Of a DNA stretch of 57,624 nt, positions 9,543 through 23,849 are shown piece after piece. Origin of the DNA: an uncultured Alphaproteobacteria bacterium. GTDB taxonomy: Bacteria > Pseudomonadota > Alphaproteobacteria > HIMB59. Both the position numbers and the translations under genes were made by a program. The notes below the pieces were generated by a model. The model saw only the letters and a program-made list of their open reading frames with translations. It made no database searches and was not told the origin of the DNA. The stretch is from the NCBI GenBank assembly GCA_902538085.1, contig CACBDV010000005.1:1-57624 (forward strand), in the 5' to 3' direction. How positions within the stretch are numbered: the stretch's first letter is position 1; the number at the start of each line of letters is the position of its first letter.

Positions 9543-9905
9543 TTATTTATCTGACTTTAGCTCCAAAGACTCTATTTCTTTTTCTTCAATTGTTTCGTAG
9601 TTCTTGTAAATTTGTAATACTAAAGCTAATCCAAGCGCTGAAGTAGCCACTCCAACGACGATAGCGGTCAGTATTAAGACGTGTGGCAATGGATTTGAAT
9701 AGGCATTTGCCATTTTTGTTAATATAGGGGCGGTTCCATCTAAAACTTTTGCGAGTGATACAAAAAATACAAAAACTGCAGTTTGAAAAATTGCTAAGCC
9801 AACTACTTTTTTTAAATAGTTTTGACTAGTGATGATTATAAATAATCCGCCAACCATAAGTAAAATAAAGGCAAAATGGTTCCAAAAATAAATAAAATTA
9901 CTCAT
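9543..9905 (-). CDS. mrpC: Mrp antiporter subunit C (NuoK-like)
   Basis: 120 residues with three transmembrane helices, homologous to NuoK. The middle helix contains VGLAIFQTAVFVFFVSLA and the third PHVLILTAIVVGVATSALGLALVLQI, matching the MrpC/NuoK pattern LTxIVIGxAxxAxxLAL. The frame also has an ATG at 9944, but the one at 9905 is preferred: it gives the family N-terminus (MSNFIYFWNHFAFILL) and overlaps the mrpB stop as ATGAGTAA, a typical coupled arrangement; the 13 extra residues of the longer version would be coded inside mrpB. A hydrophilic acidic tail of about 20 residues follows the last helix. Confidence 0.85.
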   Translation of the reverse strand: MSNFIYFWNHFAFILLMVGGLFIIITSQNYLKKVVGLAIFQTAVFVFFVSLAKVLDGTAPILTKMANAYSNPLPHVLILTAIVVGVATSALGLALVLQIYKNYETIEEKEIESLELKSDK

Positions 9906-10335
9906 TAATTTCCCCGAAGGAAGCAAAAGAGTGATACAAAGCAATCATTACAGTTGCAACTGTAATGCCTACTCCTAGCTCAACTAATATAATACCAATA
10001 TGTTGACCAGTTGATGGGTCTGATGACAAAACATTGTAATCTAAATACATCCCATCAAGAAATATTGAAACTATTCCGACACCTGCATATAACAAAACAC
10101 CTATGCACATTAAATATCGATTGATCATTATTGGAACTAAAGTTTCTCCTTTTGAAAGCCCAAATATCATTGAATACAATATAAATGCTGCTGCTACTAT
10201 TACCCCAGCCTGAAATCCACCGCCTGGTCCATAGTCACCATGAAATTGAACGTAAAGCCCAAATATAATAATCGGTGCAAAAAGAATTTTGCTAACAACG
10301 CTTAATACTGGACTAGATGAAATTTTATCTCTCAT
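9898..10335 (-). CDS. mrpB: Mrp antiporter subunit B (MnhB domain)
   Basis: 145 residues with four hydrophobic helices. The MnhB hallmark is VQFHGDYGPGGGFQAGVIVAAAFILY, including the conserved HGxxxPGGGFQ. A second family segment is GVGIVSIFLDG and the last helix holds ILVELGVGITVATVMIALYH. It overlaps the preceding gene by 11 bases and mrpC by 8. Part of the inner-membrane antiporter complex; it is in the equivalent place to the MrpB chain that contacts MrpA and MrpC. Confidence 0.85.
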   Translation of the reverse strand: MRDKISSSPVLSVVSKILFAPIIIFGLYVQFHGDYGPGGGFQAGVIVAAAFILYSMIFGLSKGETLVPIMINRYLMCIGVLLYAGVGIVSIFLDGMYLDYNVLSSDPSTGQHIGIILVELGVGITVATVMIALYHSFASFGEINE

Positions 10336-10894
10336 TTTTTTTATTTTTTTTAAAATTAGTTTTACGATTAAGAGTGTTGCTAGTTAATAAAGCAATGACA
10401 CCTAAGCCTGCGGTAAATATTACTATTGTTTCTCCCAAAGTATCAAAACCTCTATAACTTGCTAAAATATTAGTAACAACATTAGGTATATGAAAAAAAT
10501 CTTTACTTTCCTTTAAGTACTCTGGAACTACATGAAGATGTATTGGTGCATTAGGATCTCCTAATAAAGGGAGGTTTGCAATTATAATAATCAATATAAG
10601 TGATATCGCTACTGCAAGAATAATGCTCGGAAATAAGTTTATTAATTTATTTTTTTTTCCTTCTGGTAATTTCGCAGCAGCCATTACCATTAAAATTGTT
10701 GATATACCAGAACCAACTGCAGCTTCAGTAAATGCTACATCAACCGCATCTAAATTCACATATATAGCTGAGCATAACAAAGTAAAAGCGCCTGTGAGTG
10801 CAACAACACTTATTAATGACGTGGTTTTAAAAATAAAAAAGGTTGTTACCAATAGAAGCGAAATTAAGAAAAAATTAATTAATAAAAAGTTCAT
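10325..10894 (-). CDS. MbhD/MbhE-like antiporter subunit (the C-terminal part of a split MrpA)
   Basis: 189 residues, with an N-terminal MbhD/DUF4040 module (about 1-75: LTGAFTLLCSAIYVNLDAVDVAFTEAAVGSG, ending in AKLPEGKKNK) and a C-terminal MbhE module (about 85-175: LASYRGFDTLGETIVIFTAGLGVIALL). In classical Mrp systems these two modules form the C-terminal end of MrpA. The conserved acidic DAVDVAFTEAAVG segment corresponds to helices close to the proposed ion path. Its separation from the NuoL-like core (6598-8049) by four genes shows a split MrpA, as in group-2-like or Mbh/Mrp-related complexes. It overlaps mrpG by 4 bases. Confidence 0.8.
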   Translation of the reverse strand: MNFLLINFFLISLLLVTTFFIFKTTSLISVVALTGAFTLLCSAIYVNLDAVDVAFTEAAVGSGISTILMVMAAAKLPEGKKNKLINLFPSIILAVAISLILIIIIANLPLLGDPNAPIHLHVVPEYLKESKDFFHIPNVVTNILASYRGFDTLGETIVIFTAGLGVIALLTSNTLNRKTNFKKNKKNER

Positions 10895-11205
10895 TTTTTA
10901 TTTTTTCCCTTTGGCTTATACCCCGACTCATGTGCAAATAGAGCTATTGCATGGCCTGTTACAGGGCTAGTAAATATTAAAAATAAAGGTATTAATAAAA
11001 GTTTAAGACTTAATAAACTAAAACCAGAATAAACTATCAAAGCTAAGACTATAAAACCTGATCCTAGAGTATCAATTAAACCAGCAGCATGAATTCGACT
11101 AAATACATCGGGTAACTTTATAAGGCCTAGACTACCAGATAAAATGAAGAAGCAGCCAATAGCTAATAAGACTAAAGAAACTAACTCGATATAATTATAC
11201 GACAT
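10891..11205 (-). CDS. mrpG: Mrp antiporter subunit G
   Basis: 104 residues with three helices. Family motifs are LLAIGCFFILSGSLGLIKLPDVFSRIHAAG (MnhG consensus GxxGxxRxPDxxxRxHA) followed by LIDTLGSGFIVLALIVY, with a basic tail. It overlaps mrpF by 11 bases and the MbhD/E-like gene by 4. It is a small structural subunit of the antiporter complex; no catalytic role is known. Confidence 0.85.
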   Translation of the reverse strand: MSYNYIELVSLVLLAIGCFFILSGSLGLIKLPDVFSRIHAAGLIDTLGSGFIVLALIVYSGFSLLSLKLLLIPLFLIFTSPVTGHAIALFAHESGYKPKGKNKK

Positions 11206-11464
11206 TACTTTTTTTTCTTTTTATTTTGTAATACCTAAGTATTGCAATGGTGCCTAAAAAATTCAAAAGTATATACATCAAAGAAATATCGACAAAATCA
11301 GGTCTATCGAATGCAAAACCATGAACACTGATACCTATGGCTATAATAGTTCCAATGCTTGATATAGATAATATTCTATCAAAAGGAGTTGGTCCTTTGA
11401 TTGCTCGAACTAAACATAATGCTACAGAGACGCCCAGAACAATTAAAGTTGCAAAAAAAATCAT
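11195..11464 (-). CDS. mrpF: Mrp antiporter subunit F
   Basis: 89 residues, three helices, with the MnhF signature LVRAIKGPTPFDRILSISSIGT (consensus RxxxGPTxxDRxxA) and the later FVDISLMYILLNFLGTIAILRYYK (consensus DxxLxYALLxFxGTxAxARY). It overlaps mrpE by 4 bases (ATGA type) and mrpG by 11. The start matches the expected N-terminal helix. Confidence 0.85.
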   Translation of the reverse strand: MIFFATLIVLGVSVALCLVRAIKGPTPFDRILSISSIGTIIAIGISVHGFAFDRPDFVDISLMYILLNFLGTIAILRYYKIKRKKSNVV

Positions 11465-11955
11465 TTATCTAAATCCGTAATTACTTTGTTCATATCATCT
11501 GTTTGCAAGTCTTCTGATAGCTTCTTACTTAATGCGTGAACTAGAAATGTTTTTTTATCTACTTCTATTGTTACTGTACCCGGAGTAAGAGTTATAGCGT
11601 TTGCATAGTTTGCAATACCTGTTCTATTCTTCTGAGATGCTTTAACGCTTATTAGTTGTGGAGAGTATTTACCATTCCATATTAAAGCTGTTGTAGTAAT
11701 TCCAGATTTAAAAATTTCTTTAAATAACCAAATCCAATAAAATGGTAATCTAAGAATAATTTTTAAAGGAAGAGAGTCTTCCTCGAGAGCTTTAGCTCTA
11801 TAAGACATCCAAAAAACAAAAAGAACACTGACTAGTCCAAAAAAAAGTAAAAGCGATTTAAGGTAACCAGATAAAATAAACCAGAATACAAAAAGTATTA
11901 TGAAATAAGTTATAAATGATAAGGTCTTAAGTGAATCTTTATTAAGTTTAGCCAC
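11461..11955 (-). CDS. mrpE: Mrp antiporter subunit E
   Basis: 164 residues. Two or three N-terminal helices (about 10-45) are followed by the MnhE domain: RLPFYWIWLFKEIFKSGITTTALIWNG and the cytoplasmic part NAITLTPGTVTIEVDKKTFLVHALS, which is the diagnostic MnhE motif TLTPGT. It is the first gene of the antiporter group and starts only 9 bases after the stop of the formyltransferase-family gene, so the antiporter is probably co-transcribed with the carboxylate/formyl module upstream, unless there is an internal promoter within that coding region. Confidence 0.85.
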   Translation of the reverse strand: MAKLNKDSLKTLSFITYFIILFVFWFILSGYLKSLLLFFGLVSVLFVFWMSYRAKALEEDSLPLKIILRLPFYWIWLFKEIFKSGITTTALIWNGKYSPQLISVKASQKNRTGIANYANAITLTPGTVTIEVDKKTFLVHALSKKLSEDLQTDDMNKVITDLDK

Positions 11956-11964
11956 TAAAAGCTA

Positions 11965-12882
11965 TTATGAGAATAAATCACCCTCTGTAAATACTGCAGT
12001 ATTCATGTCTTTAACAAATAATTTACCTTGGTCTGATTTAAATCTTGATACCTCAATAAATCCACCTTTAACTGCGATTCTGACGTTTTCAGCATTAATT
12101 GATATGATTTGACCTGGAAAATGCTCAGCACTTTGCTCGTCAATAAACTTAGTGTCATAAAAGACATACTCATCACCCATGAATTCAGCCCATGCACCAG
12201 GCTGAGGGTTGCAACCCCTTATTAAATTATAAATTTCGTTTCCGGGTTTTTTCCAATCAATTCTTGCATCACTTTTTTTACACCAAGACTCATATGTTGC
12301 TTTAGAGTCATCTTGAGGTGTCTTTGGTGCATTACCAGACTCAATTAAATTTGCAGCTTCAACACATGCTTCAAGGCCTAATGGAAATATCTTTTTAAAA
12401 TAAACATCTCCTAAAGTATCATCAGGACCAATATCAACTTCTTTTTGAAGTAATATTTCACCCTCATCTAGCCCATCATTTGGATAAAAAATTGAAAGAC
12501 CTGTTTTTGTGGAGCCACCAATTATAGGCCAGTTTATTGAACTTGGTCCTCTATGGAGTGGAAGTAGTGAGGGGTGAAAGCAAATAGATCCATGAGTGGG
12601 AATATCTCTCGCTCCTTCAGGCACAAAAATTATTACATAAGCCATGACACATAAATCCGCACCATGAGACTTAATTTGGTCTAGTACCTCTTGGTCTTTA
12701 AAATTTGAGGGTTGGTAAACAGGCAAACTAACACTTTGAGCGTATTCTTTAACAGGATCGACTGGTTTACCCTCTTTGTCAGGTGCACAATATACTGCTA
12801 CTACTTCATGGTCTGTTTCTGTATGAAATTTTTCTAAAGCACTTTTTCCAAATGCCTGTTGCCCCATTAAAATTATTTTCAT
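11965..12882 (-). CDS. Stand-alone 10-formyl-THF hydrolase/formyltransferase-family protein
   Basis: 305 residues matching the N-terminal hydrolase domain of eukaryotic 10-formyltetrahydrofolate dehydrogenase (ALDH1L1) more than methionyl-tRNA formyltransferase. The folate-binding core HGSICFHPSLLPLHRGPSSINW contains the catalytic His103, and NDGLDEGEILLQ contains the catalytic Asp139; these correspond to His106 and Asp142 of ALDH1L1. A C-terminal beta-barrel-like domain (about 205-305) follows, but there is no acyl-carrier or aldehyde dehydrogenase domain. Likely reaction: 10-formyl-THF + water to formate + THF, or transfer of a formyl group between THF and another carrier. It is 26 bases after frc and 9 before mrpE. 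In this context (two formyl-CoA enzymes upstream) a role in handling formyl units is inferred, not shown. Methionyl-tRNA formyltransferase is the main alternative. Confidence 0.75.
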   Translation of the reverse strand: MKIILMGQQAFGKSALEKFHTETDHEVVAVYCAPDKEGKPVDPVKEYAQSVSLPVYQPSNFKDQEVLDQIKSHGADLCVMAYVIIFVPEGARDIPTHGSICFHPSLLPLHRGPSSINWPIIGGSTKTGLSIFYPNDGLDEGEILLQKEVDIGPDDTLGDVYFKKIFPLGLEACVEAANLIESGNAPKTPQDDSKATYESWCKKSDARIDWKKPGNEIYNLIRGCNPQPGAWAEFMGDEYVFYDTKFIDEQSAEHFPGQIISINAENVRIAVKGGFIEVSRFKSDQGKLFVKDMNTAVFTEGDLFS

Positions 12883-12908
12883 TATTGCTCCTTAAATTAA
12901 AATATATC

Positions 12909-14156
12909 TTATACTGCTCCGGCCTCTCTTACAGCTTTAATTTCATCGTCACTCATCTGACAAAATTCTTTTAATATCTCATCAGTATGCTCTCCGAGAA
13001 GTGGAGATCTTTCAACTTTTGCTGGGGAGTCAGATAACTTAATCGGATTACCAACAGTCAAATATTTCCCTCGTTCAGGGTGATCGACTTCAACTATAGT
13101 ATTAGTGTCTCTCAGACCTTGATCTTCAGCTAATTCTTTTAGAGATAATATTGGACCAACTGGTATATCTAAAGGGTTACATATATCCATTACCTCAAAT
13201 TTAGTCTTGGTCATTGTCCATGACTCAATTGTATCAAATATTTCGTTTAACCTTGGTAGTCTTTTAGCAGGAGTTGAGTAATTTTCATCCTCTTTCCATT
13301 CGGGTTTACCAATAACATCACATACTTTTTCCCAAACAGCCGCCTGGGTAATAAAATATGTATATGCATTAGGATCCTTTTCCCAACCTTTACATTTTAG
13401 AATTCTTCCTGGCTGACCACCACCTGAATCGTTACCTGCGCGAGGCGTAGAGTCACCAAAAGGAATGTCTTCTCCGAATTGAGAGTATTCTTTTAAAGGC
13501 CCTCTTGAAAGTCTCTGTTGGTCACGAAGTTTAACTCTGCAAAGATTTAAAACTCCATCTTGCATTGCGGCAGATACTCTTTGTCCCTTTCCTGACTTTT
13601 CTCTATGGAATAAAGCAGTAACTATACCCAATGCTAAATGTAGTCCTGTTCCACTATCTCCTATTTGTGCACCGGTGACTAAAGGAACTTCTCCAAGCAT
13701 GCCTGTTGTTGAAGCAGATCCACCTGCGCACTGAGCAACATTCTCATAAACTTTACAATCTTCATATTTTCCTGGACCAAAACCTTTAACAGACGCATAA
13801 ATCATTCTTGGATTTATTTCTTGAATTTTTTCCCATGAAAAGCCCATTCTATCTAAAGCACCAGGAGCAAAATTTTCTACCATCACATCACACTCTTGGA
13901 TTAACTTTGTAAATATTTTTGAACCCTCTGGTTTCTTTGGGTTTAATGTTATACTTCTTTTATTTGAGTTTAGCATGGTAAAGTACAAACTGTCTGCATC
14001 AGGAACGTCTCTTAGCTGACCTCTTGTAGCATCACCCACTCCTGGTCTTTCAACTTTTACGACATCTGCACCAAACCAAGCTAGTAATTGTGTGCAAGTT
14101 GGTCCGGACTGGACGTGTGTCATGTCTAATATTTTGACACCTTTTAAAGCTTCCAT
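12909..14156 (-). CDS. frc: Formyl-CoA:oxalate CoA-transferase homologue (class III, CaiB/BaiF)
   Basis: 415 residues (Oxalobacter Frc: 428). It follows Frc closely throughout: opening [85 protein letters not shown] and the end [14 protein letters not shown]. The catalytic aspartate is Asp167 in [10 protein letters not shown] and the mobile glycine loop is at 245-250 (GGGQPG). Family reaction: CoA moves from formyl-CoA to an acceptor acid via an aspartyl-CoA thioester. It lies 16 bases after the ThDP lyase, which would make the formyl-CoA. The acceptor is uncertain: oxalate is the textbook case, but the partner enzyme does not look like oxalyl-CoA decarboxylase, so a 2-hydroxy acid is suspected. 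Succinyl-CoA as an alternative donor is possible. Confidence 0.85.
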
Positions 14157-14172
14157 GGTTTCCTCCTAAAGT

Positions 14173-15849
14173 TTATTTGTACATAGTCTGGTTTTTTGTA
14201 CCAGGAGCAAATTCTTCTTTATCCACCCAAATATTTACGATTGCAGGTATACCTGACTTAACAGCCTCTCTTGCTCTTTGAAGTGCAGGTTGGATTTCTT
14301 TTGCTTCTCTAACAGCTTCGCCATGACCACCAAAGATTTTTGCAAACTCATCAAAGTTAACATCACCCAAGATGTTTCCAACATTTCCTTTATCTTCACC
14401 GTACTTCATAATTTGACCAAATCTGATCTGGTTTTGAGCAGAGTTATTCCCAATAACTGTTAAAACAGGGGCTTTGTGTCTGACAAAAGCCTCGAAGTCC
14501 ATTCCAGTCATTGAAAAAGCACCATCACCACAATATAAAAGAATTTCTTTTTCAGGTGCAGCTAATTTGGCTGCAAGCGCGTATGGTACTCCGACACCTA
14601 AAGTTCCAAGGGGCCCTGGGTCCATCCAGGCACCAGGCATTCTAGGTTGAACTGCTTGAGCACTTATGGTTACAACATCTCCTCCATCACCTATGTATAT
14701 AGTGTCATCGTTTAAAAACTGGTTGAGTTCCCAAGCTACTCTATAAGGGCTAATAGGAGATTTATCTGTTGTAAATGTAGGCATCAATTTTTCTAAAGCT
14801 GCCTCTTCCCCAGATCGGAGTTCATTAAACCAATCTGAACGATCTTTTTTTGTTCCTGCTTCAGAGATAGCCTTTAGAGTTGTTCCTATGTGTCCAACCA
14901 AACCAAGTGATATATCTCTATTTTTTCCAACAGTTCTATAGTCCATATCAATTTGAATAACAGTTGCGTTAGGATTTAATCTTTTACCGTAACCCATTCT
15001 AAAATCAAAAGGTGTTCCAACAATTATAATACAATCTGACTTGGTAAAAGCATTTCTTCTAGTTCTGTGAAAGTGATGTGGGTCTCCAGGTGGCATTGAA
15101 CCTCTAGCAGCACCATTTAAATAAGCAGGTATATTCATATTTTTAACAAAGTCGATTGCATCTTTTGTAGATTGGCAAGTCCAAACCTGTTGACCTAAAA
15201 GTATGCACGGTCTCTCTGCATTAGAAATAATATCAGCAGCTTTTTGTACATCTACAGGGTCTGCTAATGTTTTTGATGAGGCACTATATTTTCCTGCTTC
15301 TGGTAAGACGGCTTTACTCATTGGAATTGAAGAGTCAAGTATATCTCTTGGAATTTCTAAAAATGATGGACCAAAAGATCCATTTCTGGTTTCCCTAAAA
15401 GCCATTGATACCATGTCTGCACATCTCTCGGTTGACATTACAGTTGCTGCAAATTTTGTAATTGGTTGCATCATGTCTACGTGAGGTAAATCTTGTAAAG
15501 ATCCCATTTTATGTTGTGTAAGTGAACTTTGTCCTCCAATTAAAAGCATCGGGATTTCAGCTCTAAAAGCATTTGCTACTCCTGTTAATGCATGTGTCGT
15601 ACCTGGTCCAGCGGTTACAACTGCACATCCAGGTTTACCTGTCATTCTTGCATAACCATCAGCTGCATGAGAGGCAACTTCTTCATGACGTACGTCAATA
15701 ATTTTAATTCCTTCGTTTAGACATCCATTGTAAATATCAATAATGTGTCCCCCACATAAAGTGTAAATAACCTCAACTCCCTCTGCTTTAAGGGCTTTAG
15801 CAACCAGCTCACCGCCAGTTATCATTTGTTCGTTAGATCCTGTAGACAT
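14173..15849 (-). CDS. ThDP-dependent enzyme, probable 2-hydroxyacyl-CoA lyase (acetolactate synthase superfamily)
   Basis: 558 residues with the three ThDP-enzyme domains: PYR (about 10-175; catalytic Glu in VRHEEVASHAADGYAR, residues 56-57), central (about 195-330), and PP (about 375-545; GDG at 441-443 and NN at 468-469 of the Mg-ThDP motif). Oxalyl-CoA decarboxylase carries a Tyr-Glu pair after its substrate loop; here that position reads MGSLQDLPHVDMMQ, closer to the AFQEF-type text of 2-hydroxyacyl-CoA lyase. With Frc next door the likely chemistry is cleavage of a 2-hydroxyacyl-CoA to an aldehyde and formyl-CoA. The FAD-binding role of true acetolactate synthase and a small IlvN partner are not seen. 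RBS GGGAGAGG lies just upstream of the ATG, and a 17-bp palindrome sits 17 bases before the start. Automatic pipelines would call it acetolactate synthase; oxalyl-CoA decarboxylase remains possible. Confidence 0.75.
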   Translation of the reverse strand: MSTGSNEQMITGGELVAKALKAEGVEVIYTLCGGHIIDIYNGCLNEGIKIIDVRHEEVASHAADGYARMTGKPGCAVVTAGPGTTHALTGVANAFRAEIPMLLIGGQSSLTQHKMGSLQDLPHVDMMQPITKFAATVMSTERCADMVSMAFRETRNGSFGPSFLEIPRDILDSSIPMSKAVLPEAGKYSASSKTLADPVDVQKAADIISNAERPCILLGQQVWTCQSTKDAIDFVKNMNIPAYLNGAARGSMPPGDPHHFHRTRRNAFTKSDCIIIVGTPFDFRMGYGKRLNPNATVIQIDMDYRTVGKNRDISLGLVGHIGTTLKAISEAGTKKDRSDWFNELRSGEEAALEKLMPTFTTDKSPISPYRVAWELNQFLNDDTIYIGDGGDVVTISAQAVQPRMPGAWMDPGPLGTLGVGVPYALAAKLAAPEKEILLYCGDGAFSMTGMDFEAFVRHKAPVLTVIGNNSAQNQIRFGQIMKYGEDKGNVGNILGDVNFDEFAKIFGGHGEAVREAKEIQPALQRAREAVKSGIPAIVNIWVDKEEFAPGTKNQTMYK

Positions 15850-15866
15850 TTTTAACCTCTCCCTGG

Positions 15867-15883
15867 TGGTATAATGTATACCA
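15867..15883. promoter_or_regulatory. 17-bp perfect palindrome, probable GntR/FCD operator before the ThDP lyase gene
   Basis: TGGTATAATGTATACCA: 7-base arms, 3-base centre, no mismatch. It lies in the 63-base gap between the GntR gene and the ThDP lyase gene. On the minus strand it reads TGGTATACATTATACCA, so it holds an extended -10-like TGGTATACA, with TTGCAA 15 bases further upstream. The palindrome ends 17 bases before the ATG, next to the RBS. A protein bound here would block this promoter. The near-identical site at 19798-19814 supports it as an operator. Confidence 0.7.
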
Positions 15884-15912
15884 GATTTAGAGGTCTTGCA
15901 AAGAATTTTGCC

Positions 15913-16572
15913 TTATGAATTAATGCTTTCTTGTATCTTATCAACTAAAGTAAGTGCGTGATTTTTAAGAAGTTTTTCTGCTTTTGATCCCTGGCCTGCG
16001 ACAAGAGATCTAACAATGTCATTGTGTTCATCAATAGATTTGACAGCTCTATGTGACTCTATTACAAATTTTTTCCTCAAGTATTGTAAATGAATTAACT
16101 GTGACTCTAAAATTTCTCCCATTAATTTTACTTTAGTTAATTTCATAATTTGATTATGAAATTTAATATTATCATTCGAGTAGTTATCAAGTTCAGACAA
16201 AACGTTCTCTTTTGAGTAATGACAATACTTATTTAAACTTTCAATCTCATCTTTAGTAGAATTAGCAATAATTAAATGAGCTGCATAACCCTCGAGACCT
16301 GCCCATACAGTTACAATATCAATCAATTCTTTTTTTGATTTTCTGTGCACAAATACGCCTCTTCTTGGAACTGTTTTAACAATTCCCTCTTGCTCTAATT
16401 TAGCAACAGCTTCTCGAATAGGTGTCCGACTAACTCCTAGCTTTTCAGATAATTGTCTTTCATCTAGATGAAAATCACTTTGTTTTAAATATATATTAAG
16501 TGACAAAATATATTTTTTTAGTGAATCGTATACCTTACCTTTTAGGTTTACCGGTCCTATTTTTTGGATCAT
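15913..16572 (-). CDS. GntR-family transcriptional regulator with FCD ligand domain
   Basis: 219 residues. The winged helix spans about 10-75: LKGKVYDSLKKYIL, then the recognition part ERQLSEKLGVSRTPIREAVAKLEQEGIV and wing KTVPRRGVFVHR. The FCD domain (about 85-210) is helical, with the metal/ligand-type residues in NDNIKFHNQIMKLT and the His in IDEHNDIVRSLVAG. FCD regulators usually sense a carboxylate and repress its catabolic genes. The start abuts the tctA stop with no gap, so it is in the transporter operon. Two matching palindromes at 15867 and 19798 flank the operon and are its likely binding sites. Ligand unknown; a 2-hydroxy or dicarboxylic acid imported by TctABC would be logical. 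Confidence 0.85.
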   Translation of the reverse strand: MIQKIGPVNLKGKVYDSLKKYILSLNIYLKQSDFHLDERQLSEKLGVSRTPIREAVAKLEQEGIVKTVPRRGVFVHRKSKKELIDIVTVWAGLEGYAAHLIIANSTKDEIESLNKYCHYSKENVLSELDNYSNDNIKFHNQIMKLTKVKLMGEILESQLIHLQYLRKKFVIESHRAVKSIDEHNDIVRSLVAGQGSKAEKLLKNHALTLVDKIQESINS

Positions 16573-18096
16573 TTATGTAGTCTGTGCTTTTTTAAAAAAT
16601 TTTCTATAAAGAGGGCCAAATGCTGGCATAATTAAAAGTACAATTGCAATATACATTATGATTGCAGCAATAGGTTTTTCTGCCATATCAAAAAATATTC
16701 CCATACTACCATCAGATAAAATTAGAGACTGTCTTAAAGCTTTTTCAGCTAATGGACCAAGAACAATAGATAAAACAGCTGGTGCCACAGGGTAATCTAA
16801 TTTTCTCAAAATATATCCGGCAAAACCGAATAGCAACATTAACCATACGTCGTGAAGGCTTTGTGTAGGTGCATAACCACCTGTTACACAAAGAACAAAA
16901 ATAACCGGGGCCAAGATGGCAAATGGTATCCTTAATACCATTAAAAAAGCTGGAATTAACGCAATATTTAAAACCAGTGTAAAGAAGTTAGCGATATAAA
17001 GACTACCAATTAAGCCCCAAACAAACTCGGGCTCTTGAGTGAATAAAAGAGGACCTGGTGTAAGTCCCCATAAAATCATGCCCCCAAGTAAAATAGCAGT
17101 TGTAGGTGACCCTGGAATACCTAATGTTAACATAGGAAGCATACTTCCAGTGCTAGCAGAATTATTTGCACATTCTGGAGCAACAACTCCAGCTGGGACA
17201 CCTGAACCAAATTCTTTTGAATTTTTTGATAATTGTTTTGTAATTCCATATGACATAAGTGATGCCGGTGTGGCACCTGCCGCAGGGAGAATTCCCACAA
17301 AGAAACCTAGAAAAGAACCAATGTTCATTGCCATTATAGTTTTTTTAAGAGCGCCAAATGCTCTTCCAACTTCCTTCATGTTGACTGATAATTTTGACAT
17401 TTGAACTTTACCTTTTGTTTCTTCAAGGGTCCAAAGCATCTCTCCAATTCCATAAATTCCGATAGCAAGTACAAGGAAATTAATTCCATGAAGAAATCCA
17501 GGGATATTAAAGAAAATTAATCTTGGTTTTCCTGTAATTAGATCTAAGCCTATAGTTGATAAAGCTAATCCAATTAATATAGAAAAAATAGTTTTTGGAA
17601 CGTCATCTCCACCTAAGCCTACAAATGTTGCAAAGGCCATTACCATTAATGCAAAGGTTTCAGGCGCATTAAATCTTAGTGCTACCTCAGCCAGAGGTGG
17701 TGCAAATAAAGTAAATAAAATAACAGATACAGTTCCACCAACGAAGGAACCTACTGCTGCTGCAGTTAAAGCTGTCATAGCTTCTCCCTTAACAGCTAAG
17801 GGTCTTCCATCAAAAACTGTAGCTACTGCAGTAGAAGCTCCAGGTATGCCTAGCATAACGGAACTTATGGCACCTCCATACATAGCACCGTAATAGACAG
17901 CTGCTAAAAATATTATTGCTGCAGTGGGTGGTATAATAAATGTAATTGGAATAAGTATTGCAACACCATTAACTGAACCAAGACCAGGCATTGCACCAAC
18001 AAATAAACCAATTAGACAGCCAAATATTAAAAGACCAAGGTTTAAGGGTTCAAAGGATACAAAAATTCCCTCTAAAAGAAGTATAAATACATCCAT
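16573..18096 (-). CDS. tctA: Tripartite tricarboxylate transporter, large membrane subunit TctA
   Basis: 507 residues with about 12 hydrophobic helices and typical TctA motifs: LGLLIFGCLIGLFVGAMPGLGSVNGVAILIP near the start, YYGAMYGGAISSVMLGIPGASTAVATVFDG, and the second-half repeat GFFVGILPAAGATPASLMSYG and NNSASTGSMLPMLTLGIPGSPTTAILLGGMILWGL. The two GIPG-type loops are the conserved TctA signature. It forms the transport channel in the inner membrane, driven by an ion gradient, and takes a carboxylate delivered by the periplasmic TctC. tctB is 28 bases upstream; the GntR gene follows at once. Confidence 0.9.
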   Translation of the reverse strand: MDVFILLLEGIFVSFEPLNLGLLIFGCLIGLFVGAMPGLGSVNGVAILIPITFIIPPTAAIIFLAAVYYGAMYGGAISSVMLGIPGASTAVATVFDGRPLAVKGEAMTALTAAAVGSFVGGTVSVILFTLFAPPLAEVALRFNAPETFALMVMAFATFVGLGGDDVPKTIFSILIGLALSTIGLDLITGKPRLIFFNIPGFLHGINFLVLAIGIYGIGEMLWTLEETKGKVQMSKLSVNMKEVGRAFGALKKTIMAMNIGSFLGFFVGILPAAGATPASLMSYGITKQLSKNSKEFGSGVPAGVVAPECANNSASTGSMLPMLTLGIPGSPTTAILLGGMILWGLTPGPLLFTQEPEFVWGLIGSLYIANFFTLVLNIALIPAFLMVLRIPFAILAPVIFVLCVTGGYAPTQSLHDVWLMLLFGFAGYILRKLDYPVAPAVLSIVLGPLAEKALRQSLILSDGSMGIFFDMAEKPIAAIIMYIAIVLLIMPAFGPLYRKFFKKAQTT

Positions 18097-18124
18097 CTTT
18101 TATGTCTTTACTTTACCAATCTCA

Positions 18125-18649
18125 TTATGAATACATAAAATCGTATACTGGATAAAATAAGGGCTCTGAAATACCTTGAGGTAAAGGTATTTTTAAAAGC
18201 CATTCAAAAAATAAAAAGGTTAAAACTGGTGTGATTAAAGAGAATACAGATATAAATAGGATACTTTTAGAACTAAAATATCTAAGATAAAAAGCTAAAA
18301 AAAAGATAAGTGAAAAGTAAATTCCCAAATAGCCTATTGCTAAAACTAAAATAACTAATGAAATAATTGTTACTGCAATATATTTGAATGCTTCAGCCTC
18401 AATAAAAGGCGAGTCATCTTTAGATTGTGGTGACCTTTTTAGAACGAATTTAATTATGGTAAGGACAGTACAAATAAGCATGCCAAGAGAAAGGTAAAAA
18501 GGAAGAAATCCCGCACCCATGTTTTCTTCTGCGTTCCATGTAATTCTATTCTCAGCACTTTTAATCATCAGAGCGATTGAGCATAACGCTAAAATAACGG
18601 CCACTGCAATTTCTGCTCTTTTGACAGTTATTTTTTTTGTTACGCTCAT
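18125..18649 (-). CDS. tctB: Tripartite tricarboxylate transporter, small membrane subunit TctB
   Basis: 174 residues, four hydrophobic helices: AEIAVAVILALCSIALMI, MGAGFLPFYLSLGMLICTVLTIIKFVL, a pair around 85-130, and a last one near 140-160. The GAGFLPFYLSLGML text is the usual TctB motif (GxxxxFPxxxGxxL). It ends in PLPQGISEPLFYPVYDF, with the SLPxG-like pattern common at TctB C-termini. Between tctC (19 bases) and tctA (28 bases). It is needed for transport, but its precise part in the mechanism is unclear. Confidence 0.85.
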   Translation of the reverse strand: MSVTKKITVKRAEIAVAVILALCSIALMIKSAENRITWNAEENMGAGFLPFYLSLGMLICTVLTIIKFVLKRSPQSKDDSPFIEAEAFKYIAVTIISLVILVLAIGYLGIYFSLIFFLAFYLRYFSSKSILFISVFSLITPVLTFLFFEWLLKIPLPQGISEPLFYPVYDFMYS

Positions 18650-18668
18650 ATCACTCTTAATTTAAATA

Positions 18669-19646
18669 TTAGTTAAAGTTTTTAATGATCTCACCGTGCT
18701 TAGCATATTCGATTGCTAAGAAATCTTTAAGACCAAAACCCTCTAACCAGCTCATTAACTTTCCATCGTCGATGTTGAAAGTTTGGAACTCGTTATCATG
18801 ATAAACAGTGTGAAGAAGTCCTGTGTAGTACTTCTCTACCTCTGCATCAATACCAGCTGGAGCCATAAATGCTCTCATCATATAGTATTCAAGATCAGGA
18901 TAACCTAATTCATATGAAGATGGTACATCTGGGAAAGCAGGATTTCTCTCAGGAGTCATCATAACTAATGCTTTTGAGTCACCTGATTGATAGAATCCCA
19001 TCTGCTCAGAAGGGTTATTTAATGTGAAATCTGACTCGCCGCCAACTAGACCTTTTGCAACAGCACCACCACCGTCATATGGTACGTACTTTGCATCAAA
19101 TCCAAACTGACCTCTCATCATACCAAGAAGTAATTCGTCTTCTGACATACTTCCTGTACCACCCATTACTAGACCATTGCCTTTAGCAAGTGCGATGAAG
19201 TCATCAAATGTTTCTACACCTTGAGTATTTTTACCTTCAGTTGCAATCCATACTAAGAATGTATCTGTAATAAGTCTTGCTAATGGTGTGAAGTCATTAA
19301 AGAAGTCAATTCCTAACTCAGGCTGGTTAACAGGTGTAGTTAGAACGTTGTTAAGAGTAATGATAAGTGTGTGCTCATCACCAGCTTTTTTCTTAACATA
19401 AGTCATAGCTTCACCACCAGAACCACCTTTTTTATTAATCGGAATCACTGGCTTAGATGCGTAGTCGTTTTTCTCGATAACACCTTGAACTAATCTAGCA
19501 ATTTCGTCAGCTCCACCACCTTGACCAGCTGGGATAATAAGTTCAATAGGCTTCTTTGGACTAAAAGGCTTCGCAGAAGACACTGAACTAACAGCGACAA
19601 GTGAAAGTGAAACAATAACTAATGCTAATTTTTTGATTATTGACAT
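18669..19646 (-). CDS. tctC: Tripartite tricarboxylate transporter, periplasmic binding protein TctC
   Basis: 325 residues. Signal peptide: basic SIIKK, hydrophobic LALVIVSLSLVAVSSV and a likely cut after SSA near residue 25. The mature protein starts KPIELIIPAGQGGGADEIARLV, the usual Bug/TctC opening where loops bind the carboxylate through water and backbone amides. It binds the substrate in the periplasm and hands it to TctAB. A strong RBS (GGAGGAAACAATATG) and a less A+T-rich coding sequence than the housekeeping genes suggest high expression. First gene of the minus-strand operon; 151 bases separate it from the palindrome before qor. Substrate is not deducible, but the neighbours point to a hydroxy- or keto-carboxylate. 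Confidence 0.9.
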   Translation of the reverse strand: MSIIKKLALVIVSLSLVAVSSVSSAKPFSPKKPIELIIPAGQGGGADEIARLVQGVIEKNDYASKPVIPINKKGGSGGEAMTYVKKKAGDEHTLIITLNNVLTTPVNQPELGIDFFNDFTPLARLITDTFLVWIATEGKNTQGVETFDDFIALAKGNGLVMGGTGSMSEDELLLGMMRGQFGFDAKYVPYDGGGAVAKGLVGGESDFTLNNPSEQMGFYQSGDSKALVMMTPERNPAFPDVPSSYELGYPDLEYYMMRAFMAPAGIDAEVEKYYTGLLHTVYHDNEFQTFNIDDGKLMSWLEGFGLKDFLAIEYAKHGEIIKNFN

Positions 19647-19690
19647 ATTGTTTCCTCCTATAGGTTAAGCAGTACAATAAACTATTTAAG

Positions 19691-19711
19691 AGAATATTAA
19701 AAATATATTCT
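19691..19711. repeat. Short inverted repeat in the tctC upstream leader
   Basis: AGAATAT, 7 bases, ATATTCT: perfect 7-bp arms made mostly of A-T pairs. It lies 45-65 bases before the tctC start. If tctC is transcribed from the palindrome region at 19798, this would be a weak hairpin in an approximately 145-base leader. Otherwise the gap 19647-19797 contains only the tctC RBS and nothing else recognisable. Confidence 0.35.
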
Positions 19712-19797
19712 TAATTTAGGATTTAGTTTAAAATTAGAAAAAACCTTGTTTTAGCATTGATTTTCCTAACTTTTACAACAGTGATTGTTTTATTTAA

Positions 19798-19814
19798 TTG
19801 TATAATGTATACAA
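19798..19814. promoter_or_regulatory. 17-bp perfect palindrome, probable GntR/FCD operator between tctC and qor
   Basis: TTGTATAATGTATACAA: 7-base arms and the same ATG centre as the site at 15867-15883; 15 of 17 positions are identical. On plus it contains a consensus -10 box TATAAT (19801-19806) about 28 bases before the likely qor start at 19834. On minus it reads TATACATTATAC, the same orientation as at the lyase promoter, 151 bases before tctC. It could therefore control both divergent operons. Confidence 0.7.
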
Positions 19815-19833
19815 AATACCACAGGCAGTTAAA

Positions 19834-20808
19834 TTGAAGTTTATAAATTATAAAAATGGAAGTTTGTTTCTAGACGAAAAAGAGATCGCTGACCCTCTTG
19901 ATGAACAAATCCAAATTGAAATTCATTTCGCTGGAATAAATAGAGCAGATATTCTCCAAAAAAATGGACATTATCCACCACCCTCAGGTGAGAGTGAAAT
20001 TATTGGATTAGAGTGTTCCGGAATAGTTACCAAATTAGGAAAGTCAGTAAAAAACTTTAGTTTAGGAGACCAAGTTTGTGCAATTCTTGGAGGCGGTGGA
20101 TATGCGGAGTACGTAAATGTTAATGAAAAACAAGTAATGCCATTACCAAAAAATTTAAATTTACATGAAGCTGGCTGCTTACCCGAAACCACACTCACTG
20201 TTTTTGAGAATATTTTCAATGTATCTAAATTTCAAAGAGATGAGGCGATTTTGATACATGGTGGAAGTAGTGGTATCGGCACAACAGCTATTTCAATTCT
20301 TAAAAATTATACAAAAAATATTTTTGTAACCGCTGGTACGAGTGAGAAATGTAAGAGTTGTATCGAATTAGGAGCCACTGATGCTATTAACTACAAAGAT
20401 ACAGATTTTGAAGAATATTTTAATGAGAAAAAATTAAAGGTTGATGTAATATTAGATATGGTTGGAGGAGATTACTTAAAAAAAAATTTAAAAATATTAA
20501 ATTTTAAAGGAAGACTTACTTATATTGCTGCTCTTGGTGGGATTAAAGCAGAAACTAATCTTTTACATATAATGAATAAACAATTAAAAATATCTGGATC
20601 AACATTAAGATCGAGATCTCCTTCTGAAAAGGGAAATATTGTTGATCAGGTTGTCAAAGAAATATGGCCATTAATAGAGAATGATAAATATAAACCAACG
20701 ATTTTTGAAACTTTTAATATAAGTGATGTAAATAAAGCACATGAGGTTATGGAAAAATCTGACCATATAGGAAAAATAGTTTTAAGCATAAAAGGAGAAA
20801 AAAAATGA
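19834..20808 (+). CDS. Zinc-free medium-chain reductase, quinone oxidoreductase (QOR) family
   Basis: 324 residues from the TTG at 19834. The frame stays open further up to a TTG at 19798, but that codon is inside the palindrome and the extra 12 residues have no family counterpart; the shorter start gives the usual LKFINYKNG opening behind AGGCAG. The N-terminal GroES-like domain has the QOR signature [18 protein letters not shown] and [10 protein letters not shown]; the Rossmann domain starts at about 140 with [15 protein letters not shown]. No structural-zinc cysteine cluster is seen. Reaction: NADPH-dependent reduction of quinones or activated double bonds; the actual substrate is unknown. 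It overlaps sucC by 4 bases (ATGA), so it is translationally coupled to it. Confidence 0.8.
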
Positions 20809-21992
20809 ATCTGCACGAATACCAAGCGAAAATATTATTAAAAAATAATAACGTTAGAGTTTTAAATGGCTACCCAGTATTAGATGATAGCGATATAGAA
20901 GCTGCTGTAGATTCTATCCAAACGCCCGTTATGGTTGTGAAGTCTCAAATTCATGCAGGTGGAAGAGGCGCGGGAAAATTTAAAGATAGTGGTGATGACA
21001 AAGGTGGTGTGAGAGTTTGCTTCTCAAAAGATGAAGCCAAAGACAATGCAAAAAAAATGTTTGGTAAAACTTTAGTTACAAAACAAACTGGTCCAAGTGG
21101 AAAACAGGTAAATAGACTTTACATTGAAGAAGGGTGTGATATCAAAAAAGAGTACTATCTAAGTATGCTCGTGGATAGAGCCTCGTCTTCAATTTCAATT
21201 ATAGCCTCTACTGAGGGCGGTATGGAAATTGAGGAGGTAGCAGAAAAACAACCTGAAAAAATTATTACTGTTAATGTCCCTGGGGACAGTGTAATTGACC
21301 AAAATAGTTTAAATAAATTAACTGAAGGTCTAAAGATAGATCAAAACCTATCAAATGATTTTTGTGATCAAATTCAAAAAATTTACAATAGCTTTTTGTC
21401 TTCAGATGCCTCTTTGGTGGAAGTTAATCCTTTTGTATTGACTGGTGAGGGTAATTTTTTGGCTTTAGATGCGAAGGTATCGATAGATGATAATGCGCTT
21501 TATAAACATAAAGATGTAGCTTCAATGAGAGATGAAACTGAAGAGGACCCTGCAGAGATTGAGGCTTCAAAACATGAGCTTAACTACGTCAAATTAGATG
21601 GTCAAATTGGATGCATGGTAAATGGAGCTGGTCTTGCTATGGGTACAATGGATATAATAAAATTACATGGTGGCAGTCCTGCAAATTTTCTAGATGTAGG
21701 AGGAGGAGCTACAAAAGAGAGAGTGGCAAAAGCTTTTTCTATAATCCTGCAAGATCCAAATGTAAAAGCTATTTTGGTAAATATTTTTGGTGGCATTATG
21801 AAATGTGACATTATCGCTGAGGGTGTGGTAGCTGCAGCTAAAGAGCTATCTATTCAAGTTCCATTGGTAGTAAGATTAGAAGGAACCAATGTTGACTTAG
21901 GAAAAGAAATTTTAAACAAATCTGGGCTCTCAATTATTTCGGCAGATAATTTAGAAGATGCAGCTCAAAAGGCAGTTAGGGCTTTAAATTAA
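20805..21992 (+). CDS. sucC: Succinyl-CoA synthetase (ADP-forming) beta subunit
   Basis: 395 residues. ATP-grasp domain at about 1-235 opens [12 protein letters not shown] and has the nucleotide-binding [14 protein letters not shown]; the CoA-ligase domain follows, with [36 protein letters not shown] and [17 protein letters not shown]. The GGRGAGKFK and [10 protein letters not shown] texts are those of succinate-type enzymes rather than the malate thiokinase MtkA pattern, so succinate is the likely substrate. Role: succinyl-CoA + ADP + Pi to succinate + ATP + CoA in the TCA cycle. Alphaproteobacteria usually keep sucCD with mdh and sucAB; here it follows qor behind a GntR-type palindrome. Confidence 0.9.
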
Positions 21993-22002
21993 AGGAGAAA
22001 TT

Positions 22003-22875
22003 ATGTCAGTATTAATTAATAAAAACACAAAAGTTATTTGCCAGGGTTTTACTGGTTCTCAAGGTACATTTCACTCAGAACAAGCTATAAAATATGGAAC
22101 TCAAATGGTTGGTGGGGTGACACCAAAGAAAGGTGGTCAAGAGCATTTAGGACTTCCTGTGTTTAATAGTGTTAAAGAGGCAAAAGACAACACAGATGCA
22201 AATGCAACTGTAATATACGTTCCACCTCCTTTTGCAGCTGGTGCTATAATTGAAGCGATTGATGCAGATATGGAACTAATTGTTTGTATAACTGAAGGAG
22301 TTCCAGTTCTTGATATGATGCAAGTAAAAAGAAAATTGGAAAAATCAAAATCGCGTTTAATTGGACCCAACTGCCCTGGAATAATTACTCCTGATGAATG
22401 CAAAATAGGCATTATGCCAGGTCATATTCACCAAAAAGGAAAAATAGGAGTTGTTAGTAGATCTGGCACATTGACATATGAAGCAGTAGCACAAACTTCT
22501 GCTGTAGGTCTAGGTCAATCGACTTGTATTGGTATTGGGGGAGATCCTATTAACGGAACAAACTTTATAGATTGCCTTGATCTCTTTTTAAAAGATCCCG
22601 AAACTGAAGGTATCATAATGATCGGAGAGATTGGTGGAACTGCTGAAGAGGAAGCTGCAGAATTTATTAAAAAATCTGAAATAAAAAAACCAGTTGCTTC
22701 TTTTATAGCCGGTGCTAGTGCTCCTGCTGGAAAAAGAATGGGTCATGCAGGCGCAATTATTTCGGGTGGAAAAGGCACCGCAGAGTCAAAGTTTAGTGCT
22801 TTAGAAGAAGCAGGAGTTCATATATCCAAATCACCAGCAAAATTAGGTGAGACAATCAAAGAAGCTTTAAACTAA
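22003..22875 (+). CDS. sucD: Succinyl-CoA synthetase alpha subunit
   Basis: 290 residues, the normal SucD length. CoA-binding domain opens [27 protein letters not shown]; the phosphohistidine is His248 in [18 protein letters not shown]; the [10 protein letters not shown]-type segment reads [13 protein letters not shown]. It forms the catalytic heterodimer with SucC and carries the phosphoryl group. RBS AAAGGAGAAATT is 5-6 bases before the ATG, 10 bases after sucC. Its last 4 bases overlap the end of the convergent reductase gene. Confidence 0.92.
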
Positions 22876-23849
22876 TATAATTTAGCTTCTTTAGCTCTAA
22901 GTTTAGTTAAAGCAAGAACTGTATCAATTGTAGGAGTTGGAACATTTGTAATTTTTCCAAGCTCTTGAACAGATGTGATTAAAGCATCAATCTCCATGGG
23001 TCTATCGCGTTCTAAATCTTGGAGCATAGATGTTTTATGTTCGCCAACTGCTTTAGCTGCATCAATTCTTCTCTCAACATCGAAAGGCTTGTCTATTCCT
23101 AAATTTTGAGAAATTGCATGAGCTTCATTCATCATATTTTTTATGACGGCTCTGACTTCATCGTTGCTACAAATTTTTACAAGTGTAGATGTTGTAAGTG
23201 CGCTAATAGGATTAAGAGAAAGATTACCAAAAAGTTTTAACCAGATATCCCCTTTTATATTAGGTCTAACAGGTGCTTGAAAACCAGCTTTCTCTAAAGT
23301 CTCAGAAAGATTTTTAATTCTATCTGTTTCCTCACCATTAATTTCTCCTAGTTGAAACTTATCTCCCTCTAGGTGCTGAATAACGCCTGGTTTGATAACT
23401 TCTGATGCGGGATTAACTATACAGCCAATGATTTTTTCAGGGCCAATTCGATCCCATTGACTTCCATCTGGATCAACTGAAGTAACTTTTTTATCTTTGA
23501 AATCAGGATTAGTGTGATTGTAGAAATACCACCATGGGATACCATTCACACCCCAAACAAATGAAGTATCATCTTTCATAAGAACTTCAAATGCATCAAG
23601 ACAACCCGGAACTGAATGAGCTTTTAGAGTCACAAAAATATAGTCTTGCTTTCCAGCTTTTTCCGCAGTGTCTACACACTTTGGATATACAACTAGTTCT
23701 TTCCCATCTTTTCTTAATCTCAATCCATCTTGCTTAATAGCCTGATAATGAGGCCCTCTAGCAATTAAAGTTACATCTGCACCTATCTCAGTGAGTTTTG
23801 CTCCCAGATAACCACCAATAGCTCCTGCACCATAAATACAAATTTTCAT
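22872..23849 (-). CDS. Ketopantoate reductase-family (ApbA/PanE) NADPH-dependent reductase
   Basis: 325 residues. N-terminal Rossmann domain with [21 protein letters not shown] (GxGxxG), NADPH-selective [14 protein letters not shown], and [12 protein letters not shown]. The helical C-terminal domain has the substrate segment [22 protein letters not shown] with the catalytic Lys and Asn residues. Family reaction: 2-dehydropantoate + NADPH to pantoate. The family is often recruited for other 2-keto acids. It abuts the aminotransferase gene upstream with no gap, so the pair may work on one keto acid (for example glyoxylate or hydroxypyruvate) rather than in pantothenate synthesis. No panB or panC is in the window. 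Confidence 0.8.

Follow-up and report, generated by a model that had tools for sequence, protein, structure and literature searches.

The window analysed here is a stretch of 57,624 nucleotides from an uncultured alphaproteobacterium of the HIMB59 lineage (contig CACBDV010000005.1 of assembly GCA_902538085.1). It carries a gene set that we read, with a probability of about 0.8, as a module for the uptake and assimilation of oxalate, in which a lyase-derived, thiamine diphosphate (ThDP)-dependent enzyme would act as oxalyl-CoA decarboxylase in the place of the canonical enzyme, Oxc. The gene family of this enzyme is called the lyase below. The assignment of activities rests on sequence families, gene neighbourhoods and residue comparisons.

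In the proposed pathway, the tripartite transporter TctABC would import oxalate, and the formyl-CoA:oxalate CoA-transferase Frc, firmly placed by family, would transfer the CoA of formyl-CoA to oxalate, so that oxalyl-CoA and formate are formed. The ThDP enzyme would then convert oxalyl-CoA to formyl-CoA and CO2, closing the CoA cycle. Part of the oxalyl-CoA could be reduced to glyoxylate by a PanE/ApbA2-like enzyme, and the glyoxylate aminated to glycine by a BhcA-like enzyme. Because this reduction drains the CoA ester, formyl-CoA would need re-priming or draining. The formyltransferase-like protein FmtL may serve this end by exchanging formyl groups between CoA and tetrahydrofolate (THF), with FtfL linking the exchange to ATP; elsewhere among the lineages its place is taken by an acyl-CoA synthetase of the ADP-forming type (ACD).

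Lyase genes stand where canonical oxc is expected

Among 398 Pseudomonadota genomes (genomes, contigs and loci are labelled G, C and L), Frc was found in 32, of which 28 have Oxc over its cut-off and one (G284) has a truncated copy. The lyase is present in each of the three Frc-positive genomes without Oxc, namely the window genome G000, G347 and G237 (E ≤ 1.2e-239). The lyase itself was present in four of the 398 genomes, every one of them Frc-positive, and its complementarity with Oxc gave a Fisher p of 0.0008, or 0.006 without the window genome. The fourth, G389, is the only genome among the 29 Oxc-bearing ones that also has the lyase, with a separate frc beside each; its canonical oxc-frc pair and its lyase-frc pair lie on contig C5 near 48869 and 251533 (L188 and L187), some 200 kb apart. 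In a wider search, canonical Oxc over the cut-off was found in none of 29 lyase genomes and none of three plasmid records. A bicupin oxalate decarboxylase was considered as the real enzyme and was absent from all 19 lyase genomes searched.

Neighbourhoods were compared across 91 lyase loci, made up of the best 80 from a genome scan that returned at least 579 stretches encoding lyase relatives, seven plasmid loci and four loci from whole genomes. Six of the 91 (L046-L051) belong to the window genus, and L206 and L207, repeats of L067 and L109, were left out of the count. In 89 of the 91, frc lies directly downstream of the lyase gene and within 200 bases of it; the exceptions are L050, cut off by the end of its contig, and L190, the additional lyase copy of G237. 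Fourteen canonical oxc regions were mapped with the same query genes, and the counts for them refer to that query set. Frc was downstream of oxc in 13 (none in L203), and a 34-40% identical GntR regulator was the next mapped gene upstream in seven, on the same strand in six and divergent in L195. These 14 regions also hold FmtL after Frc (three), ACD (two), a PanE-like gene of 50-56% identity (four), SucCD (one) and OxlT (six). Because the same kinds of neighbours surround both enzymes, the lyase can be said to occupy Oxc's place.

Two main layouts were seen among the lyase loci, the rest being partial forms of them. The order TctABC-GntR-lyase-Frc-FmtL occurs in the window genus and in several Alpha- and Gammaproteobacteria, while lyase-Frc-ACD, in many cases with OFA/OxlT transporters, occurs in Actinomycetota, Betaproteobacteria and Phyllobacterium, where a curated OxlT (TIGR04259, 623 against a cut-off of 335) stands beside the lyase. 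TctA is present in 12 of the 91 loci (67-68% identical in six loci outside the genus) and OxlT/OFA at more than 45% identity in 45, and the two never share a locus, a count not corrected for kinship. ACD was found in 72 loci, FmtL in 12 and SucC/D-like genes in 67. A fumarylacetoacetate-hydrolase-family gene recurs in lyase and oxc loci alike (for example L028:14425-15198 and L194:11076).

The lyase family holds together at 63-72% identity across Proteobacteria, Actinomycetota and one Longimicrobiales metagenome-assembled genome. A tblastn search of plasmids returned eight records at 63-65% identity, with the next matches at 35% or less; three annotated plasmid records name the gene merely as a thiamine pyrophosphate-binding protein, and no match was found in viral contigs. 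Five Kribbella loci (L063, L072, L095, L097 and L118) have the lyase-frc pair, and no Oxc was found in the two of these genomes that were searched. Kribbella has been reported as an oxalate user (Robertson & Meyers 2022, as cited in the available text of PMC10192776).

The ThDP enzyme is neither a typical Oxc nor a typical lyase

The ThDP enzyme has the Pfam domains TPP_enzyme N, M and C, and it scored under the cut-off of each NCBIfam model among the matches listed (25 of 51). Its best NCBIfam match is PRK05858, a model named acetolactate synthase, which we take to correspond to a mycobacterial 2-hydroxyacyl-CoA lyase (HACL) described in the literature (487 bits, cut-off 587). Against the curated HACL model NF058623 it reached 352.5 of 600 (341.7 for its homologue in L028), although three PRK05858-type comparators were also below this cut-off (313-318), and against the biosynthetic acetolactate synthase model TIGR00118 it reached 313.9 of 538. 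The best solved relative is the actinobacterial AcHACL (E 5e-78). An AlphaFold model (pLDDT 77, pTM 0.79) and a fold search confirmed the fold without separating a decarboxylase from a lyase. In a small tree with long branches, which contained neither AcHACL itself nor L209, the lyase family was sister to three PRK05858-type rows (support 95/92) and apart from Oxc. IolD and a 31% homologue in the sister family f2 (L040 and L041, in a different neighbourhood) were judged not to be orthologues.

Across 25 aligned lyases, Gly33-Gly34-His35 and Gln119 are invariant. The position of the acid/base residue of AcHACL, Glu493, is Ile475 in all 25, and the position three residues further on is an invariant Gly. 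The same Glu493 position holds Glu in three actinobacterial PRK05858-type proteins (902-904 against the cut-off of 587) and Tyr in canonical Oxc, and the C-terminal tail of the family is about as long in the alignment as that of Oxc. All seven canonical Oxc sequences aligned keep the Tyr-Glu pair and the Tyr of that enzyme. As described in the available text of PMC8760513, decarboxylation by Oxc needs no proton transfer and involves no such acid/base residue, and the Oxalobacter formigenes enzyme holds the oxalyl carboxylate through Tyr483 and Ser553; Gln in place of Oxc's Glu121 is given as a HACL feature in PMC13327070, likewise seen in part. Since the equivalents of Glu493, Tyr483 and Glu121 are all replaced, the residues of the family fit neither Oxc nor HACL wholly.

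These results bear on a preliminary description of the window, which had proposed that Frc and a formyl-CoA-handling ThDP enzyme form a unit with its own importer and regulator, and which would have been refuted by homologous clusters that do not keep the two genes together. The unit holds and this refutation fails: the pair is conserved, as counted above, and TctABC and GntR are present. The description had further supposed that the substrate is a 2-hydroxy acid and the product an aldehyde, and here the evidence runs the other way, given neighbours that match those of canonical oxc, lyases in the Frc-positive, Oxc-free genomes, and Ile for Glu493. Action on oxalyl-CoA, which it had set against its own proposal, now appears the likeliest reading from the sequence evidence. 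Its naming of the enzyme as a lyase keeps the support of the closest solved relatives, HACLs and not Oxc, but loses that of the catalytic Glu. A distinct system with a lyase instead of Oxc survives as regards the place of the enzyme and not as regards the substrate, which is probably oxalate. The structural comparison with HACL and Oxc that it had suggested confirmed the fold and the HACL-side neighbours and did not separate decarboxylase from lyase.

Evidence against the oxalate reading, and other explanations

A number of observations speak against an oxalyl-CoA decarboxylase and its supposed partners. The ThDP enzyme scored 247.7 bits with the Oxc model TIGR03254, whose cut-off is 739.4; in sequence and fold the solved structures closest to it are those of HACLs and benzaldehyde lyase, with Gly-Gly-His and Gln kept; and Tyr120-Glu121 and Tyr483 of Oxc (O. 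formigenes numbering) are replaced by Leu118-Gln119 and Ile475 in 10 lyases aligned. G389 holds both enzymes, so their roles may differ, and G237 has two lyase copies with equal scores about 16 kb apart (L190:8784 and L191:7193), of which one alone has frc beside it. The accessory genes are unevenly kept: a PanE-like gene above 45% identity was found in only 14 of the 91 lyase loci (39 above 35%), GntR above 33% in only 19, and a BhcA-like gene above 45% solely in the window genus (L047, L048, L049 and L051, out of the 105 lyase and oxc loci). The Streptomyces OFA transporter of L027 is under the OxlT cut-off (136 against 335), the SucCD of the window may simply be the enzyme of the tricarboxylic acid (TCA) cycle, and one of the four PanE-like relatives whose surroundings were read, L212 from Skermanella, has no oxalate gene near it. 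Finally, 37 of the 91 lyase loci, every one of them actinobacterial, hold a gene for an aldehyde dehydrogenase resembling the one in L027 (L027:5165-6706, more than 40% identity), whereas no such gene was seen in the 14 oxc regions; this favours the earlier proposal of an aldehyde product. No curated family came near its cut-off for this protein (best 126 of 521). It could oxidise an aldehyde released by a 2-hydroxyacyl-CoA lyase, and could equally stand in for the PanE-like enzyme by acting on glyoxylate or on an acyl-CoA; because of its presence in these loci, our confidence in the oxalate reading, and in the broader proposal of a second origin given below, is slightly lowered and that in a true lyase slightly raised.

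The aldehyde dehydrogenase would suit a true HACL, for which TctABC would import a 2-hydroxy acid, Frc would make its CoA ester and the lyase would release formyl-CoA together with an aldehyde or glyoxylate. The nearest families by hidden Markov model, tree and fold are indeed HACL-type, tartronate as substrate would give glyoxylate, matching BhcA, and Gly34-His35, Thr79 and Gln119 correspond to the AcHACL residues described as holding the 2-hydroxyacyl group (PMC13327070). The portion of that paper available also indicates that the catalytic Glu is not kept in all HACLs, human HACL2 having Ile there. Nevertheless we consider a true lyase unlikely, as the enzyme takes over the position of Oxc in operons that also hold Frc, OxlT and PanE-like genes, as the catalytic Glu is missing with an invariant Gly at the position where the acid of related lyases seems to be placed (PMC8760513, seen in part), and as the annotations of the neighbouring genes in L027, L028 and L030 name none for the metabolism of 2-hydroxy acids.

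Still less probable is a natural carboligase that would join formyl-CoA, supplied by FmtL/FtfL or ACD, to glyoxylate from the PanE-like enzyme and so lead from oxalate to C3 compounds through tartronyl-CoA. HACLs are described as working in reverse (PMC11271303, in the part available), the active site is of HACL type, and genes for making glyoxylate and handling formyl-CoA share these clusters; yet no recognised tartronyl-CoA reductase is among the genes of the window cluster, which was the place searched, Frc's formyl-CoA supply would be left without a decarboxylase in Oxc-free genomes, and Oxc fills the same slot elsewhere. Least credible of all is an acetolactate synthase, or another pyruvate-type ThDP enzyme, that merely happens to stand beside frc. 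Acetolactate synthase is the name given to the family by several models, including the best match PRK05858, but a separate ilvB with ilvN, ilvC and leuA is found in the congener locus L034, the beginning of the same ilvB is found where a G000 contig ends (L033), and the pairing of lyase with frc is too regular (89 of 91 loci); an acetolactate synthase identity was rejected. The reading as an oxalyl-CoA decarboxylase is thus retained, and the enzyme would probably be a second family in an otherwise known oxalate pathway.

FmtL and the fate of formyl-CoA

FmtL has the Pfam domains Formyl_trans N and C, scores 157.3 against the methionyl-tRNA formyltransferase model TIGR00460 (cut-off 201.5), and has 4qpd as its best PDB match (E 1.1e-62). 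His103, Ser105 and the Asp of a GLD motif are kept in all nine sequences aligned, which are the window protein and eight of its 12 relatives (L067, L108, L109 and L196 were left out). A role as the housekeeping Fmt was rejected: the window genome has a separate Fmt (G000:C2:153849-154733, 255.5 bits), and a proper Fmt was present in all 13 genomes searched.

Of 16 genomes with FmtL, among them six congeners, 15 also have FtfL, which was found in none of five ACD-positive genomes; by lineage, grouped by hand, the counts are 10 of 11 and 0 of 4 (p 0.004). In L067, L109 and L121, FtfL directly follows FmtL. These counts are taken without G267, G356, G178, G269, G359, G448, G210 and G434, of which two have FtfL. 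FmtL and ACD never occur together in the 105 loci (91 lyase and 14 oxc), a pattern that is weak when confined to non-actinobacterial loci (p 0.07, loci grouped by hand). A formyl transfer from 10-formyl-THF to CoA has been proposed for the related domain of HypX, according to the available text of PMC6802093 by its authors and without direct proof. That FmtL exchanges formyl groups between CoA and THF, with FtfL coupling the reaction to ATP, is a suggestion that we hold at even odds. Telling against it are G217, which has FmtL without FtfL, three of its genus-mates that also lack FtfL (G269, G359 and G448, used here for that comparison), the presence of FtfL in six of 13 genomes in which FmtL and ACD are both missing from the oxalate region, and the lack of both genes in seven of the 91 lyase loci (one cut short) and nine of the 14 oxc regions.

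Frc, the reductase and the aminotransferase

Frc is well placed in its family, with 693.9 bits against 504.2 for TIGR03253, 705 against 442 for PRK05398, and YfdW as the best PDB match (E 4e-161). Reduction of oxalyl-CoA to glyoxylate is carried out by PanE2 in Methylobacterium extorquens. The PanE-like reductase of the window shares 51-53% identity with proteins encoded on Cupriavidus plasmids, which are other than the characterised ApbA2 sequence, and two of the four relatives with surroundings read lie within 3 kb of oxlT (on Azospirillum and Methylobacterium plasmids). The likeness to Cupriavidus proteins and the oxlT neighbours make a role in converting oxalyl-CoA to glyoxylate a fitting one for this gene. 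In Cupriavidus necator, deletion of ApbA2, encoded near frc-oxc, is reported to slow growth on oxalate, and deletion of frc-oxc to abolish it (PMC7486775, in the part available).

In strain SC52, a relative of the reductase overlaps an AMP-binding gene of CoA-ligase type (L214:7415-9924), with an ABC transporter and a fumarylacetoacetate-hydrolase-family gene nearby. This is possibly an oxalate assimilation set that is free of Frc.

Extent of the conserved unit and its putative operators

The seven-gene run on the minus strand at 11965-19646 that had been described previously was recovered in full, and the gaps, given then as 0-63 bases, measure 26, 16, 63, 0, 28 and 19. TctA, TctB and TctC are each over the Pfam gathering score. 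In the window genus the conserved unit extends further, from 11965 to 25010, adding qor, sucC, sucD, the PanE-like reductase and the BhcA-like aminotransferase (Table 1). The block order bhcA-panE-(sucDC-qor)-tctCBA-gntR-lyase-frc-fmtL recurs across congener regions as far as the stretches reach (L036-L039 and L042-L044). The order of the seven genes is kept, within the same limit, in these regions and in L046-L049 and L051, and partly in other classes, which is more than chance. The lyase was found in 20 of the 25 genomes of the genus (G000 included), the remaining five being 55-79% complete. Besides the congener regions, qor has 37-40% identical copies in L030, L052, L053 and L189. Its called start is a TTG overlapped by the second palindrome in Table 1, and the true start is uncertain.

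Table 1. Genes and putative operator sites of the conserved unit, with positions in the window
Feature	Position	Strand	Basis
FmtL, formyltransferase-like, nearest to 10-formyl-THF dehydrogenase hydrolase domain; proposed formyl-CoA <-> 10-formyl-THF transferase	11965-12882	-	profile search, PDB match
Frc, formyl-CoA:oxalate CoA-transferase	12909-14156	-	TIGR03253, PRK05398, YfdW match
ThDP enzyme (lyase); proposed non-canonical oxalyl-CoA decarboxylase from the HACL branch	14173-15849	-	profiles, gene context, residues, tree
Palindrome TGGTATA-N3-TATACCA with fully matching arms, in the gap from gntR to the ThDP gene; probable GntR operator	15867-15883		conserved place
GntR/FCD transcriptional regulator	15913-16572	-	Pfam GntR + FCD
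TctA, large membrane subunit of tripartite tricarboxylate transporter; proposed oxalate importer	16573-18096	-	PF01970, 480 bits
TctB	18125-18649	-	PF07331, 73.5 bits
TctC, periplasmic binding protein	18669-19646	-	PF03401, 84 bits
Second palindrome TTGTATA-N3-TATACAA, divergent tctC/qor promoter region	19798-19814		2 mismatches to first site; fully symmetrical itself
qor, NAD(P)H-quinone oxidoreductase, PIG3 type	19798-20808	+	TIGR02824, 402 > 296.8
SucC-like CoA-ligase beta subunit	20805-21992	+	PRK00696, 544 > 370
SucD-like CoA-ligase alpha subunit	22003-22875	+	PRK05678, 485 > 336
PanE/ApbA2-like reductase; proposed NADPH-dependent oxalyl-CoA reductase (to glyoxylate)	22872-23849	-	PRK06522.1-4, 454 > 223
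BhcA-like L-aspartate:glyoxylate aminotransferase (glyoxylate to glycine)	23850-25010	-	NF045640, 573 bits, cut-off 650

The palindrome TGGTATAnnnTATACCA stands before the lyase gene without mismatch in the window and in all 12 congener loci scanned, and a copy with one or two mismatches lies in the divergent tctC/qor region of all 12; several of these loci are nearly identical to the window, and L036-L039, L043, L044 and L049 are more divergent. The window as a whole has nine matches at three or fewer mismatches, against an average of 4.1 in shuffles, and the argument for an operator is made from the place and conservation of the sites. Outside the window genus, the loci inspected showed no such palindrome ahead of the lyase gene. 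Through TGGTATAnnnTATACCA-like sites, GntR is a probable regulator of both the lyase promoter and the divergent tct/qor-sucCD promoter, and the palindrome in the divergent region therefore places qor-sucCD in the same probable regulon.

In G000 and in 17 of the other 24 genomes of the genus, no SucC match besides the sucC of the unit was found; four have a second copy, and three gave no match at all. A TCA-cycle enzyme (the sucCD pair, 20805-22875) may thus sit under an oxalate regulator. Beyond fmtL the neighbourhood varies. The window (4692-11955) and some congeners (L039 and L042-L044) have a multi-gene Mnh/Mrp-type antiporter set there, whereas a single membrane protein of 438 amino acids takes the same spot in L036:4294-5610, L037:12821-14137 and L038:5407-6723; the L036 protein is of the CitMHS family, and the L037 and L038 copies start like it. 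The Mnh genes were accordingly rejected as members of the unit, and the difference is an apparent transporter swap.

Significance and comparison with known systems

We advance, as a tentative proposal somewhat short of even odds, that oxalyl-CoA decarboxylase arose twice, the second time from the HACL branch, and that the second form accounts for unrecognised use of oxalate by bacteria ranging from soil actinomycetes to alphaproteobacteria that are streamlined and probably marine; where TctABC is the importer, the stand-alone FmtL would be a dedicated formyl-CoA:THF formyltransferase, and oxalate would lead to glycine and folate-bound one-carbon units and from there to serine. If this is true, surveys for canonical oxc overlook a class of oxalate users, with at least 579 stretches holding a relative in one genome collection, and relatives of Kribbella and Streptomyces without Oxc gain a gene for oxalate use. 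Oxalate would join the nutrients of a group of small alphaproteobacteria, FmtL as proposed would provide a named enzyme between formyl-CoA and folate, and enzyme engineers would have a natural decarboxylase on a lyase scaffold, the reverse of turning Oxc into a carboligase. No description of the lyase family as an oxalate enzyme was found in the literature, with subscription papers such as Robertson & Meyers 2022 outside the scope of the search. Nor was there a literature match for HIMB59 with oxalate, and the paper on AEGEAN-169 genomes (PMC10308909) does not use the word "oxalate" in its main text. A search for oxalate and formyl-CoA with a formyl-THF formyltransferase gave nothing beyond the HypX work (PMC6802093). 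Marine oxalate use through canonical Oxc has already been proposed, as the available text of PMC10192776 relates.

The closest known system is type II oxalate catabolism, made up of Frc, Oxc (TIGR03254) and OxlT. It shares with the window a true Frc, the formyl-CoA cycle, the kinds of accessory genes and, in half of its regions, a GntR gene upstream; like canonical oxc, the lyase gene stands beside frc with a transporter or regulator of oxalate type, though not in every locus. The window differs in a ThDP enzyme that is outside the Oxc family (248 against 739 bits) and without the substrate residues of Oxc, and in a TctABC importer instead of OxlT, as in 12 of the 91 loci. A ketopantoate-reductase-like gene in the frc cluster is held in common with oxalyl-CoA reduction by PanE2 of M. 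extorquens and ApbA2 of C. necator, whereas in the window genus the glyoxylate would pass to the adjacent BhcA-like aminotransferase. With the N-terminal domain of HypX and the hydrolase domain of 10-formyl-THF dehydrogenase, which the available part of PMC6802093 describes or proposes as passing formyl groups between 10-formyl-THF and a pantetheine thiol, FmtL shares its supposed chemistry and, with the dehydrogenase domain, the His, Ser and Asp residues; unlike them it stands alone, without a decarbonylase or aldehyde dehydrogenase domain, in operons of oxalate type. In sequence, tree and fold, the ThDP enzyme is nearest to the actinobacterial, PRK05858-type HACLs (AcHACL, 7PT1-7PT4), with which it has the Gly-Gly-His motif and the Gln at the position of Gln128 in common, and it departs from AcHACL in having Ile for the catalytic Glu493, an Oxc-like tail length in the alignment and the company of frc and oxalate genes.

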